A stretch of 64,000 nt of DNA. It comes from Elusimicrobiota bacterium (GTDB taxonomy: Bacteria > Elusimicrobiota > Elusimicrobia > UBA1565 > UBA9628). A model generated the notes under the pieces. It was not told the origin of the DNA. It worked only from the letters and a program-made list of their open reading frames with translations, and did no database searches. The stretch spans positions 1 to 64,000 of the forward strand of contig DAIDHS010000012.1 of NCBI GenBank assembly GCA_027451985.1, in the 5' to 3' direction. The translations under genes were made by a program, and so were the position numbers. Shown here in pieces: positions 57,583 to 64,000 of the stretch (positions are counted from its first letter, which is position 1; each line of letters starts with the position of its first letter).

Positions 57583-57686
57583 CCGGGGCCGGCAAAAACA
57601 TACACAATTGAGCCGTTCAGCCGGACTTGGGCCTCGCAAGGCGCGGGCCGGTCCGGGACCTCAGATGTCAAATGGAGAAGATGAAA

Positions 57687-57944
57687 ATGCCTAAAGCCGC
57701 CAACGCCGCATTCATGAAGGAGTTGACGATCAGCCCCGCTTTGGCCAAGATCGTCGGAACGAAGCCTCTGCCTCGCACCCAGGTCGTCAAGAAGCTCTGG
57801 GACTACATCAAGAAGAACAAGCTTCAGGACATGAAGAACAAGCGCAACATCAACGCGGACGAGAACTTGAAGGCTGTTTTCGGCGGCAAGTCCACCGTCA
57901 GCATGTTCGAAATGACCAAGCTCGTCAGCAAGCACCTGAGCTGA
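57687..57944 (+). CDS. Standalone SWIB/MDM2-domain protein
   Basis: An 85-residue protein that consists of one SWIB domain: TISPALAKIVGTKPLPRTQV, then KKLWDYIKKNKLQD, KNKRNINADENLKAVFG and MFEMTKLVSKHL. In eukaryotes SWIB sits in chromatin remodellers; in Chlamydiae and a few other bacteria it occurs alone or on topoisomerase I. A DNA- or nucleoid-related role is inferred. The start is set by GGAGAAG upstream of the third of three close ATGs. Confidence 0.9.
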   Translation: MPKAANAAFMKELTISPALAKIVGTKPLPRTQVVKKLWDYIKKNKLQDMKNKRNINADENLKAVFGGKSTVSMFEMTKLVSKHLS

Positions 57945-58482: not shown

Positions 58483-61400
58483 ATGGGAATTAAGTCGCGC
58501 GGAGTGGCGGTCAAGATTTTGGCGCTCGGAGTTGCTTCCGCGCTTGTCCTGGTTTCTCCCGGACTTGGTTGCTACGGCGTCCTGGCCGCGGGGATGGAAG
58601 CTTCCGACGCCGTCGTCGAAGCTCCCGCAAACCTCTCGTTGCCTCAGTCAACCGTTTCCGGCTATGCTCTGCCGGACGTGGTCGCGCCCGGAAATTCCGA
58701 TGGCTTGAACGTTCCCGATCTGATTGAGAACCTCCTGGGCGCTCCATCTCTGACTCCCGCGGAGGACGCTCTCCTCAAGGCCGTCCGCGCCGCGGTCGGA
58801 TCGCCGGAAAAAAGCGCTGTCGCTGAGGCGCGGGTCGCGGCGGCCGCGACTCAAGCCAGATCTCGGGCGGATTCCCTGCCCGAGGAGATACGGGCGGCGG
58901 GGCTCAGCGGCGACGTCTCCGGCTTGAAGCTCGCGGTGGCGAACGTCGGCGCCTATCGCGATTTGCTAGATGCTCAGCGGCTCAAGACTTTGGGCGGCGC
59001 CGAGCAAGATTTGGCGGGCATGGAGTCGCGGCAAGTCGAGGCCTCCGTCGCGCGGGCGCGGCGGCTTTGGCGGAGCCCGGCTCCCGCGGGCGTCGAAGCG
59101 GGCGCCGCAGCCCCGGACTCGTCGTCGGCCGGCAAACTGAAGCCGTCGAGCCATGCGGCCGTTTTGGAAGACGCGGCCGTGCCGGCGCTCGGCCGAACGC
59201 CCCTGAAGGCCGGCCTCGCGCGCAAGGCCGCAGGCTTCGGAGCGATGGGGCGGTGGCGCAAGCTTTTAAGCGGAACCGCCGTCGTCGGCGGAATCGCCGC
59301 TCTTGTGCTGACCCATGGCGCGGCCCTGAGCGCCGGCGCTTTTCTTTACGGCGCGGCGCTGATGACGGGCATCCTCCTGCATGAAACGGCGCATTTGTAC
59401 GTGGCGCGCCGCTTAGGAGACGACACGGCCCATCGCTTTGGGCAGGGCAGTCTCAATCCCTTCAAGCATGTCGATCCGTGGGGCACCGTGCTGCTGCCTT
59501 TCCTGAGCTTGGTCGCCAGCACGACGTTCCTGCATGTTCCGTTGCTTTTGGGCTGGGCCAAACCTATCCCCGTGGACTACAATAAGCTGGCCGACCCCAA
59601 GCGGGATGCGGCCAAGGTCGCTTTCGCAGGACCGGCGATTAACGCGATTGCGGGGGCGGTCTCTTGGGGCGCGCGTTTGGCGTTGGTCGCTGGCGGCGTC
59701 GTGTCCGCGGGAAGTCTGGCCGCTACGGCGCTCCAAGCCGTCGCCGTAGTCAATCTTGCCATGGCGGCCTTCAATCTTTTGGCGCCGCTGCCCCACGCCG
59801 ACGGATTCAAAATCGGCATCCGCTGGTGGCCGACCCGCGCTTACCGTTCCGCGTGGACGCGCAATCCGGGATTGCCCGGAGGCGCTTACCAAGGGATTTT
59901 CCGCCGCCTCTATGAAGGCCCTGCCAATCCGCTCTCGTGGCTTTCGCGCCGCGGGCTTTCGCCGCGCCGCGTGCAGCACCTGACCTGGGGGCTGAGCTTG
60001 GCCGTGTTCGCGGCCGCGTCGTTGGCCGGATATTTTTGGCTGGGTCTGCCGATTGCCGGCATCGCGCTGGCCTGCAGCCAAGCCTATTACTGCATCTACG
60101 AGAAGGTGCAGAACGAGGAGGCGGTCAAGTCTTTGCGCGGCATCCTGGGCGGTTGGGCCAGCTGGGCGGCGGACTTGGCGGAAAAAGGCGAGCTTCGTTC
60201 CGAGGTGGACAGCGAGCGTTTCGAGAACATCATGGCCGAAGTTTTGGACGGCGATTTGATGGACGAAGTCATTGATTCCAAGGGCTTCGACGCCCTCTCT
60301 AACGACGAGAAATGGAGCCGCTTTCAGGGCGCGTTCATCAACCGGGCCGCGGAGGCGCTCCACGCCGACCCGCGCGGCCTGCCCGATGACGACGTCTCGG
60401 CCATCCGGCAGAAGCTTTTCGAGAGCCAGGACGGCCAAGCCAGGCTGGCCCAATTGCGCCGCTGGATGGAGCAGCGGTGGGACGGCCGCGATATTTGGTC
60501 GCGCTGGCGCACCGAGAAGCGCAAGCGCCGCGATAATCAGAATTCGAGCGGGCAGAGCTCCGAAACGGTCAAGAAGGCCGGTGAAACTTTGGGAATGTTG
60601 GCTCTGGCGGTTCTGGGAACGATGGCGCTGGGCCCGCATATTTTAGGTGCGCACGCGGCGCTGGCCGCCACGCCGCTGGGGCTGCTGCTCGGGTCCATCG
60701 AGGAAGCGCCGGCAGGTTCGGACGCCGCGTCGGAACAGCCGCCAGTAGCGGTTCCGGCGGAATCATCTGCGGGGGCGCCTACCTCGGGCCGCGCACCCAT
60801 GGAGCCATTTTTAGAAGTTGCGGGAAGCCAATCCGTGGGCCTTTCCCGGGAAGAAGACAAGTTCCTCAAGGCCATGTTCGGCCGCCGCGTGCTGGAGGAA
60901 ATCCGACTGGAGGACGGCCCCCCGGTTATCGGCCGCCTTCAAGAAATGAACAAGATGGTGCCGGTCATCGCATCTCCCAGCGGAGACACGAACAGCGTGA
61001 TTTTGGTGGGCAAGGCGGGCGTGGGTAAGACCGCCATCGTCCGCAAGCTCCTCCAGGCCATCGCCTTCTCCCGCCGGCAGGAAAATCCGGAGAGCACCTT
61101 CCGCATTTCGAGCTTGGATGATCGCTATTTCCTGTCCGTGGATCCGAGCCAGATTCTGGAGCAGGAAGAGCCGACGGCCGCCCTTGCCAGCATCATCCAT
61201 ATCCTCGCTAAGTTCAATAAAAAGGAGGGCAAAAAAGGGGCGAAGGTTGTCCTGGTCATCGACGAGGTGCACACTCTGTTCGCCAGCCAGCAGTACGGGG
61301 AGCGCTTCAAGAATCTTTTGAAGAAGCCCATGGAGAGGGGCGACGTGACCATCCTCGCCGGAACGACCGAAGAGGAGTACAACAAATACGTCCGGCCGGA

Positions 61401-63828
61401 CGAGGCCATCAAGCGCCGCTTTAAGCGCATCGACGTCAACGAGTACGACGTCGCGCAGTCCCTGCGGGCCCTGCAAGAGTCGCGGGAGTACTATCAGCAG
61501 CGCTACGGCGTGAGCATCGAACCGGGCGCGCTCAGAGCTGCGGCCGAGAACTCTCACGTGGATGGGGAAGTCTTCCTTCCCGGACGTGCGTTCCACTATC
61601 TCATCGAGGCGCTGCGCGACGCCGATTTCCAGAGTCGCCGCGACCGCCTTTCGCTCGCCGTTCAGGACAAGATGAGCGAGCTGGAATACGCGATGAAGCG
61701 GCTCGAGGAAGAGAAGGCCAAGCTTTTTAAGGCGGAATCGGACGCCGCGGCCGAAGACGGGCCCGAAACGCCGAGCGTCATTGATTTGGAGAACGTCTCC
61801 GCGAGGCTGGTCGAAGATTTGGTGTCGCTCTACCGCCTGCGCAGGGCCGTCCCCACGGACGGCGTTCCGAGCGTCAGCGCGCAGATGGTCAACGACAAGA
61901 TTGTCGAGGAAACGGGCGTCGCTACCAATCAACTGACCTTGGGCCGCGAGGACATGAGCAAATACGTCGAGATGGAGGCGGCCCTGAACAAAGTCGTGGT
62001 GGGCCAGGAAGAGGCGGTCCACGTGATCTCGGACGCCGTGCGACGCAGCAAATCTGGGCTGCACGACTCCGAGGATGAGCCCATCGGCGTCTTTTTGCTG
62101 ACCGGCCCCACCGGCACGGGCAAGACCTATTTCGCCAAGAAGCTCGCGAAGTTCCTTTTCGGCAGCGAGGACGCCATGGTCCGGCTCGACATGTCCGAGT
62201 ACATGCAGCCGCACGAGGTCGCCAAGATGACCGGCGCGCCCCCGGGCTACGTCGGTTTCGAGCAGGGTGGAACGCTGACGGAGGCCGTTCGCAAGCATCC
62301 CTACAGCGTGGTGCTTTTCGACGAGATCGAAAAAGCCAACCCGGCGGCTTGGCTCATCCTCCTGCAGGTCTTGGCGGACGGACGCTTGACCGACGGACGC
62401 GGCAGGACCGTCAGCTTCAAAAACACCATCGTCCTCATGAGTTCCAACGTCGGGATGATGAGCATCGATTTGGGCCCCTACGAAAAGGCTTATGCGGAGT
62501 TGAAGGCGCGGTGGGACGCTTCGGAGGGGGAATCGACCCGGCGCGCCGAGGTCGAGGCCCAGCTCGCGGAGTTCGGCGTTCGGATGGCGCGCGAAATTCG
62601 GGAGAAAGTCCTCGTTGCGACCAACGAGGCCATGACCGGGACGTTTCCTCCCGAGTTCCGCGGCCGCCTTCAGTACGATCCCATCGTCTTCAACCCCATG
62701 ACCATGGCGATGATGGAGAAAATCGCGCCGCTCGAGCTGGAAAAGGTCCGCAACAAGGTGGCGCAGCGGGGGAACGAGCTCGAATGGACGCCCGAGGTGG
62801 TCAAAATCCTCGTCCACGAGGGCTATAGCGTGGACAAGGGCGCGCGGCCGTTGCGCAACGCCATCAAAAACCTCGTGGAGTCGCCCATTTCCCGTGAAAT
62901 TTTGAATTCCGCCGTTCAAGGCGGGGTCCAAGCCGGACCCAAGCTCATTCGGTTGACTGCCGCCAACGGTAAAATCAAGGTGGCTGTGGAGGCTATGCCG
63001 GCCAAGCCGGCCGTGAAGGCGCCTCCCGTCGAAGCGGTTTCGTTCGAGTTGTTCGACCGCCTTGTGACTTTGGTGGAGCAGGCTGTTGAGGAGGACGCCG
63101 AGGTGGGTCTGACCCGGGAAATTCTCGATCGATGGATTCTTGACGAGATCAACGCCCATCCTGAGGCGGATGCGACCGCCGCCGCCGTGCCGGCGCAAGC
63201 CCCCGCCAAGAGAGAGACGCGGGAGGCTGCGGCGCCACAGGAGCCTTCGGCGCCGCAACAGTCCCGGATTTTCTGGGCTCAAAGCGAGGCACCTGATTTG
63301 GGTGTGCAAAGCGCGGAAATTATCCGGGGCGCGCGGGAGACCGCCAAGGAGTTCCGGACCGGGGCGGCGCGGCAAATCAAGGAGGCTTTGGAGCGGGAGC
63401 GGTATCCGAAAGGCGTCTGGGACACCCTGTTGCGCTCCGTGCCCAGCGAGACCGAGCCTTATGAAGGGTGGCTCAAGGTGTTCCTGCGCCGCGCGGACGT
63501 GGGGCAAGGCGCCGGGATCAAGGTCCGCTACCGGATTGGTCCTGATTCCGCAGTCATTGCGGTGCATCGGAACGGGCCTTTGGGCGAGGACGAGGCGCGC
63601 TTTTTGAAGACACATTTCACCGGCCGGGTCCCGGCCAGCGCCCAAGAGTCCGCCGAACGGGCCGAAGGCGGCAATATTTTGGAGCAGGACAGCTCGAGCC
63701 GTCTTTACTTCGAGCTTTATCGTCTCCTATCCGCCATCCCCGGCGCGGGCCTCGGGTATTCGACCGGCGCTTCCGGAACGGACTATTGGGTGGAGATTCC
63801 CAATCCCGGCGTGCATGGCTCGCGGTAA
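58483..63828 (+). CDS. Giant M50 intramembrane protease fused to a ClpB/ClpC-like double AAA+ ATPase
   Basis: A 1,781-residue protein. Residues 1-37 look like a signal peptide; 40-235 are helical. The M50 (site-2-protease-like) domain spans about 250-460: zinc motif HETAH at 300-304, the AFAGPAINA helix, and the third ligand Asp440 in LPHADGF. More hydrophobic segments lie near 500-540 and 705-740. AAA+ D1 has Walker A GKAGVGKT (843-850) and Walker B with Asp927-Glu928; the KYRGEFE-type pore loop is missing. D2 has GPTGTGKT (1208-1215), the pore loop GYVG, Asp1280-Glu1281 and sensor-2 GAR (1453-1455). The last 270 residues are not recognised. I infer a membrane unfoldase-protease in one chain, analogous to FtsH. 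AAGGA precedes the ATG. Confidence 0.88.
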   Translation: MGIKSRGVAVKILALGVASALVLVSPGLGCYGVLAAGMEASDAVVEAPANLSLPQSTVSGYALPDVVAPGNSDGLNVPDLIENLLGAPSLTPAEDALLKAVRAAVGSPEKSAVAEARVAAAATQARSRADSLPEEIRAAGLSGDVSGLKLAVANVGAYRDLLDAQRLKTLGGAEQDLAGMESRQVEASVARARRLWRSPAPAGVEAGAAAPDSSSAGKLKPSSHAAVLEDAAVPALGRTPLKAGLARKAAGFGAMGRWRKLLSGTAVVGGIAALVLTHGAALSAGAFLYGAALMTGILLHETAHLYVARRLGDDTAHRFGQGSLNPFKHVDPWGTVLLPFLSLVASTTFLHVPLLLGWAKPIPVDYNKLADPKRDAAKVAFAGPAINAIAGAVSWGARLALVAGGVVSAGSLAATALQAVAVVNLAMAAFNLLAPLPHADGFKIGIRWWPTRAYRSAWTRNPGLPGGAYQGIFRRLYEGPANPLSWLSRRGLSPRRVQHLTWGLSLAVFAAASLAGYFWLGLPIAGIALACSQAYYCIYEKVQNEEAVKSLRGILGGWASWAADLAEKGELRSEVDSERFENIMAEVLDGDLMDEVIDSKGFDALSNDEKWSRFQGAFINRAAEALHADPRGLPDDDVSAIRQKLFESQDGQARLAQLRRWMEQRWDGRDIWSRWRTEKRKRRDNQNSSGQSSETVKKAGETLGMLALAVLGTMALGPHILGAHAALAATPLGLLLGSIEEAPAGSDAASEQPPVAVPAESSAGAPTSGRAPMEPFLEVAGSQSVGLSREEDKFLKAMFGRRVLEEIRLEDGPPVIGRLQEMNKMVPVIASPSGDTNSVILVGKAGVGKTAIVRKLLQAIAFSRRQENPESTFRISSLDDRYFLSVDPSQILEQEEPTAALASIIHILAKFNKKEGKKGAKVVLVIDEVHTLFASQQYGERFKNLLKKPMERGDVTILAGTTEEEYNKYVRPDEAIKRRFKRIDVNEYDVAQSLRALQESREYYQQRYGVSIEPGALRAAAENSHVDGEVFLPGRAFHYLIEALRDADFQSRRDRLSLAVQDKMSELEYAMKRLEEEKAKLFKAESDAAAEDGPETPSVIDLENVSARLVEDLVSLYRLRRAVPTDGVPSVSAQMVNDKIVEETGVATNQLTLGREDMSKYVEMEAALNKVVVGQEEAVHVISDAVRRSKSGLHDSEDEPIGVFLLTGPTGTGKTYFAKKLAKFLFGSEDAMVRLDMSEYMQPHEVAKMTGAPPGYVGFEQGGTLTEAVRKHPYSVVLFDEIEKANPAAWLILLQVLADGRLTDGRGRTVSFKNTIVLMSSNVGMMSIDLGPYEKAYAELKARWDASEGESTRRAEVEAQLAEFGVRMAREIREKVLVATNEAMTGTFPPEFRGRLQYDPIVFNPMTMAMMEKIAPLELEKVRNKVAQRGNELEWTPEVVKILVHEGYSVDKGARPLRNAIKNLVESPISREILNSAVQGGVQAGPKLIRLTAANGKIKVAVEAMPAKPAVKAPPVEAVSFELFDRLVTLVEQAVEEDAEVGLTREILDRWILDEINAHPEADATAAAVPAQAPAKRETREAAAPQEPSAPQQSRIFWAQSEAPDLGVQSAEIIRGARETAKEFRTGAARQIKEALERERYPKGVWDTLLRSVPSETEPYEGWLKVFLRRADVGQGAGIKVRYRIGPDSAVIAVHRNGPLGEDEARFLKTHFTGRVPASAQESAERAEGGNILEQDSSSRLYFELYRLLSAIPGAGLGYSTGASGTDYWVEIPNPGVHGSR

Positions 63829-64000
63829 TCGCCCGCTTCGCGCCCTCGCTCTTTCGCTGAGCGCCGGCCTTGTCCTTGCTTCACCGGGCGTCGGCGCCTA
63901 CTCCGCTTTCGCGGCGGAAATCGCGCCTGAACAAGCGCCTTCCATTGAGGGATCCGCTCCGAGCCTGAGCGTTCCCGACCTCGTTTCCCAAGCGCAGGGA
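63815..64000 (+). CDS. Partial gene, N-terminal paralogue of the giant protein
   Basis: The first 62 codons of a gene that runs off the window. It starts 14 bases before the giant gene's stop, so it is likely translationally coupled. The N-terminus is signal-peptide-like (LVLASPGVGAYSAFAAE) and mirrors that of the giant protein (LVLVSPGLGCYGVLAAG), and both continue into a VPDLV/VPDLI motif (SLSVPDLVSQ, and LNVPDLIEN in the giant). The two are probably related. Confidence 0.7.
   Translation, partial: MARGNRPLRALALSLSAGLVLASPGVGAYSAFAAEIAPEQAPSIEGSAPSLSVPDLVSQAQG

Follow-up and report, generated by a model that had tools for sequence, protein, structure and literature searches.

A single gene encoding both a site-2-protease-type M50 domain and two Clp-type AAA+ modules was identified in the window, the 64,000 nt stretch (contig DAIDHS010000012.1, positions 1 to 64,000) of an Elusimicrobiota genome analysed here. 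With a probability of roughly 55 %, its product is a membrane-anchored ATP-dependent proteolytic machine, in which an inner-membrane S2P-type M50 protease is joined to a cytoplasmic two-ring HSP100-type motor. The fusion protein or its parts were widespread in a search of 57 related genomes. The components are known; a conserved family in which they are covalently joined appears to be new, and no description of an M50-AAA+ fusion was found in the open-access papers searched. Intramembrane proteases are not known to require ATP, and the membrane proteases that do depend on ATP make their cuts outside the bilayer. With a conserved fusion of the two, it can be tested directly whether intramembrane proteolysis can be driven or cleared by an unfoldase.

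The gene occupies positions 58483-63828 of the window on the forward strand and encodes 1781 aa in one frame without an internal stop, from an ATG with an AGGA approximately 8 nt upstream. The first-pass annotation had placed the M50 domain and both AAA+ modules on one chain, which holds: they share this frame, the same fusion is present in relatives, and a Pfam scan of the protein found Peptidase_M50, AAA, AAA_2 (180.9 bits), and ClpB_D2-small. A scan upstream of the gene for regulatory sequences gave nothing convincing. Shortly upstream, at 57627-57944, lies a gene for a small SWIB/MDM2-domain protein (105 aa). The features of the gene are as follows.

58483..58590, + strand, aa 1-36: signal-peptide-like leader (MGIKSRGVAVKILALGVASALVLVSPGLGCYGVLA, followed by A), with a positive n-region, a hydrophobic core, and an AxA-like c-region
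58591..59247, + strand, aa 37-255: Ala/Pro-rich N-domain, with a homologue in the N-domain that the next gene encodes (BLASTP)
59248..59892, + strand, aa 256-470: M50/site-2 protease membrane domain (Pfam PF02163, motif conservation, AlphaFold/Foldseek)
59380-59394, + strand, aa 300-304: HETAH, M50 motif
59797-59811, + strand: Asp440 within ADGFK, M50 motif
59893..60582, + strand, aa 471-700: conserved hydrophobic hairpin and helical linker with an invariant C-I-x-E-K (alignment A1, AlphaFold helices)
60583..60690, + strand, aa 701-736: second hydrophobic hairpin (hydropathy, alignment)
60880..61887, + strand, approximately aa 800-1135: AAA+ module D1, without pore loop 1 and with a short ClpC-like middle region (Pfam AAA; loop and spacing tests)
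61888..62937, + strand, approximately aa 1136-1485: AAA+ module D2, with a helical insertion at the position of the ClpP loop of ClpC (Pfam AAA_2, ClpB_D2-small)
62245-62256, + strand: GYVG pore loop of D2
63340..63810, + strand, approximately aa 1620-1776: C-terminal domain, predicted GHKL/HATPase_c fold with a degenerate nucleotide site (AlphaFold, Foldseek)
63815..64000, + strand, running to contig position 67624: first part of the next gene (1269 aa)

The Pfam score of the M50 domain is 27.7 bits against a cut-off of 27.2, rising to 35.5 bits once a neighbouring match within the frame is included. Its motifs are conserved: HETAH at 300-304 and Asp440, both picked out in the first-pass annotation, are where they were reported, and the HExxH with its Asp, the NxxP, and the GP motifs are invariant in 16/16 homologues (alignment A1). 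The protein therefore has the motif set of an M50 protease, an HExxH plus the Asp of NxxP..DG in predicted membrane helices. In the AlphaFold model the domain has a pLDDT of 77, with low confidence over the latter half of the linker hairpin; the top Foldseek match of the M50 model is mjS2P (3b4r; probability 0.97, E only 0.18). The second hydrophobic hairpin is missing from three homologues (L040, L047, and L051). The fusion shares the HExxH, GP/N, and NxxP..DG motifs, membrane core, and re-entrant segment of S2P/M50 proteases (mjS2P, RseP, YwhC-like); unlike these, it has no PDZ or CBS domain and is covalently linked to AAA+ rings.

Likewise, the Walker motifs reported as intact in both AAA+ modules, and the GYVG in D2, were all found in place. 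D1 has a Walker A (GKAGVGKT at 843) and a Walker B (VVLVIDE at 922), and D2 has a Walker A (GPTGTGKT, 1208), GYVG (1255), a Walker B (VVLFDE, 1276), and a sensor-2 GARP (1453). Across the homologues, the Walker A Lys, the Walker B Asp-Glu, and the Arg fingers of both modules are invariant or nearly so, the sole Walker A exception noted being a Gly-to-Ser change in L047. The closest solved chains over this part are ClpB and ClpC. Two AAA+ modules, Walker A and B motifs, Arg fingers, and the D2-small domain are together the features of an HSP100 (Clp) ATPase, and all are present.

The two loops by which Clp proteins are told apart were compared with standalone ClpB and ClpC of the same phylum as controls; this ClpC has both KYRGEFE and [LIVM]G[FL], and ClpB has KYRGEFE only. 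The suggestion that D1 lacks the KYRGEFE pore loop is borne out across the family, since no fused member has the motif and every standalone ClpB and ClpC scanned does. Of the two modules, D2 alone has an aromatic pore loop (GYVG), an aromatic residue being found there in 14/15 homologues. The ClpP-docking loop, [LIVM]G[FL] in D2, had no match in the fused members (in L042, L050, and L055 the scan spans a short stretch only, with a chance PE[FL] match) and is present in the standalone ClpC proteins; in most fused members this region is replaced by an inserted helical segment of 48-161 residues. The spacing between D1 and D2 is 225-235 in fused members, compared with 218 in ClpC and 282 in ClpB. 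Because this is near to ClpC and well below ClpB, the fused members have no long ClpB M-domain. Therefore, the fusion protein is neither a ClpB disaggregase, as it lacks D1 pore loop 1 and the long middle domain and scores 412.9 bits against a cut-off of 1232 for the NCBIfam ClpB model, nor a ClpA/ClpC-type partner of ClpP, as it lacks the docking loop. In a tree of D2, the 16 fused sequences form one clade (support 98/93) of common ancestry, to which ClpB and other giant AAA+ proteins are nearest; branches are long, that of the window protein included, and the outer order is unsure.

Compared with ClpB/Hsp104 and ClpC/ClpA (HSP100), the fusion is therefore alike in its two AAA+ modules, D2-small domain, GYVG loop, and sensor 2, whereas it differs in the missing D1 pore loop 1, long M-domain, and ClpP loop, in the helical insertion, which lies between sensor 1 and the Arg finger, and in its N-terminal membrane protease. 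The fusion also raises the question of how a double Clp ring can operate when it lacks both the first pore loop and ClpP. FtsH, i-AAA, and m-AAA proteases are likewise single chains with a membrane anchor, an HExxH Zn protease, and an AAA+ motor; however, their protease is an M41 placed C-terminal to one ring, whereas that of the fusion is an intramembrane M50 placed N-terminal to two Clp-type rings. No M41 is among the families listed by Pfam for the fusion protein, in which the order is M50-AAA-AAA, therefore it is not an FtsH, which is encoded separately in the genome. Because ordinary FtsH, ClpP, ClpC, ClpB, and Lon are all encoded separately there, the fusion is an addition to these proteases.

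The C-terminal domain has no Pfam match, although its sequence had hinted at a decayed HATPase_c domain, and its AlphaFold model (pLDDT approximately 90) is predicted to have the Bergerat (GHKL) fold: 50/50 of the Foldseek matches listed are GHKL-type (best E 1.7e-3), and the TM-score to SpoIIAB is 0.66-0.70. Neither the N-box Asn nor the DxGxG of GHKL proteins is conserved (alignments A3 and A4), an invariant Lys being present instead. Because the ATP-binding residues of GHKL proteins are not conserved, the domain probably serves in binding or regulation.

As a membrane-anchored proteolytic machine, the fusion would work as follows. The M50 domain would cut transmembrane helices close to the cytosolic face, and a hexamer formed via D1 and D2 would engage the cytosolic end of the substrate, presumably a membrane protein, or of its fragment. 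In Clp motors the substrate passes from D1 to D2, and because the M50 domain is N-terminal to D1, the hexamer would pull the polypeptide out of or away from the membrane, and so away from the intramembrane active site. D2, with its GYVG loop, would be the threading ring, and D1 would be a ring for ATP-dependent assembly that does not grip the substrate. The polypeptide would be released at the D2 face, rather than pushed into the M50 protease, and the motor would not feed ClpP; pulling away from the protease agrees with the missing ClpP loop. A probable role of the GHKL-like domain and of the downstream modules, the latter supplied in trans by the next gene, is to select or hold substrates. 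As far as is known to us, RseP works without an unfoldase. Small membrane proteins and the remnants of signal peptides are cleared by it (PMC10470546), and the fusion could extend the range of such clearance.

It is possible, although considerably less probable, that the AAA+ rings do not thread at all and are instead an ATP-regulated platform for oligomerisation or gating, switching the M50 protease on and off in regulated intramembrane proteolysis. The family-wide loss of the D1 pore loop would suit such a role, as would a C-terminus with an anti-sigma/kinase-like GHKL fold and a degenerate site, and signalling is the typical role of M50 proteases (PMC4597795, PMC10470546). However, a static platform would have little use for the aromatic pore loop retained by D2 in 14/15 homologues, or for the Walker B motifs and Arg fingers of both rings.

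The threading motor is placed in the cytosol on evidence that is in part contradictory. The N-terminal signal-like segment had been said to raise a topology question, and the question is genuine: judged by sequence pattern, 17/17 homologues whose N-terminus is complete start with a leader, as does the product of the second gene, and this leader is at odds with the loop charges. Read literally, the leader predicts export of the N-domain, and because an even number of TM segments follows, the AAA+ rings would then also be outside. The three short loops that would be periplasmic in the canonical M50 orientation have zero Lys or Arg in 16/16 homologues, and the cytosolic loops between the M50 helices have 3-9 each. 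In the canonical S2P orientation the re-entrant loop is entered from the cytoplasmic side (PMC4597795). In the homologue from genome G222, a TM segment separates the AAA+ and C-terminal part from an M14 carboxypeptidase. Carboxypeptidases of this type are usually extracytoplasmic, and the layout agrees with an ATPase in the cytosol and export of the carboxypeptidase. Intact ATP sites require ATP, and these sites, the loop charges, and the M50 fold together predict that everything is cytosolic. A cytosolic ATPase is favoured over the leader-based reading, although the presence of the leader is then unexplained; because the leader prediction contradicts the positive-inside and fold evidence, an ATPase outside the cytoplasm, against which the first-pass annotation had warned, keeps a small share of the probability.

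The leader is not confined to the fusion. In the same genome, beside the ordinary copies, a Lon paralogue (G000:C4; L124:918-3473, minus strand) starts MKRIKFSTATLAAIAIAAWPLCVPSLSRAQA; its ORF is 851 aa from the first start and has no TM segment past the leader. An FtsH paralogue there (G000:C29; L119:1316-4372, minus strand; 1018 aa) starts MKNAAAKALAVLLSAFVVWLAPGLGLGRALAQ. Relatives also carry leader-bearing Lon and FtsH paralogues, with the Walker motifs, Ser, and HExxH intact in most; in the Lon paralogues the Walker motifs and Ser are intact, the Lys mostly so, and there is mostly no TM segment. When the N-terminal half of Lon was searched for across the class, every match was to ordinary Lon AAA+ sequence. 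In G004, a gene for a leader-bearing LonB/LonC-type AAA+ protease (L038:1007-4348) ends 4 nt before the M50-Clp fusion, with which it probably forms one operon. Where AAA+ proteases can work is a separate question posed by the leaders common to the fusion and to the Lon and FtsH paralogues. Based on these paralogues, the Lon-type gene next to the G004 fusion, and the leaders of all 17 homologues and of the split-off second gene, it could be proposed that the whole catalytic part of the fusion is extracytoplasmic, as part of a group of ATP-dependent proteases with leaders (M50-Clp, Lon, and FtsH). This is unlikely, since the positive-inside statistics and the canonical S2P orientation (PMC4597795) point the opposite way and no ATP source is known on that side. 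It is similarly doubtful that the three form a second ATP-dependent protease set, beside the ordinary cytosolic one, at least part of which works on the outer side of the inner membrane or beyond it; if they did, ATP would be needed where it is not known to be present.

For the distribution of the fusion, 341 genomes of the phylum were searched with the A1 profile, which covers the M50 domain plus linker. The same fusion is present in 24 of them, with matches of 318-789 bits that reach into the linker; among the matches listed, the remainder score 145 bits or less and are mostly standalone M50 proteins of approximately 215 aa. These 24 genomes belong to five families of one class, mostly within one order. 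In homologues read with a complete frame, the M50 domain and both AAA+ modules are always in one open frame, and most of the 24 fused members have intact M50 and AAA+ active sites. The first-pass annotation had proposed a search for M50 plus ClpB/ClpC architectures across genomes, and within the phylum the fusion does recur. In other phyla, a scan with short peptide patterns of one protein, too narrow to show absence there, gave a single match, to a proteobacterial MAG that has a standalone M50. That the fusion is degenerate and non-functional, or an artefact of annotation or assembly, is scarcely credible, since, although the M50 score is barely above the Pfam cut-off and the window protein has a long branch, the catalytic residues are conserved among homologues at 33-50 % identity, in 24 genomes and several families, and the artefact is refuted. 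An assembly join or frameshift as the origin of the fusion, a risk named in the first-pass annotation, is ruled out by the open frame and the occurrence of the fusion in other genomes.

Homologues vary in their accessory parts. A module of approximately 80 aa is present in 0-11 copies per homologue, mostly between the hairpin and D1, and a helical tail follows the C-terminal domain; neither has a Pfam match above the cut-off. In the window genome, these modules and the tail are in the second gene, the start of which overlaps the end of the fusion gene by 14 bases and which encodes a leader, an N-domain, the modules, and a helical C-terminal region, with no clear TM segment. Its N-domain is 29 % identical to that of the fusion (BLASTP, E 5e-11), and these are the only 2 copies in the genome. 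In G004, the parts of the fusion and of the second gene are one chain of 2288 aa. No shared neighbour of the fusion gene is evident in the neighbour lists, save the second gene here and the Lon-type gene in G004.

Elusimicrobiota are rich in huge proteins according to a survey (PMC11573180), with which the giant chains seen here agree. For example, the G222 protein (L085:3353-18418) is a 5022 aa chain with the M50 domain, two AAA+ modules, GHKL-like domain, TM segment, and M14 carboxypeptidase. In G005 (L093:2531-8146), a leader, a divergent M50, two AAA+ modules, the C-terminal domain, and an FGE-sulfatase domain are on a single chain. An open frame of 17755 aa (L086-L088, G047:C5, approximately 20000-62000) strings together many domains, beginning with S8, M48, two MGDG synthase, DUF885, MscS, PLD, and PD-(D/E)XK domains and continuing with M50, AAA+, M14, a second AAA+ pair, DUF5117/DUF4953, and M48.
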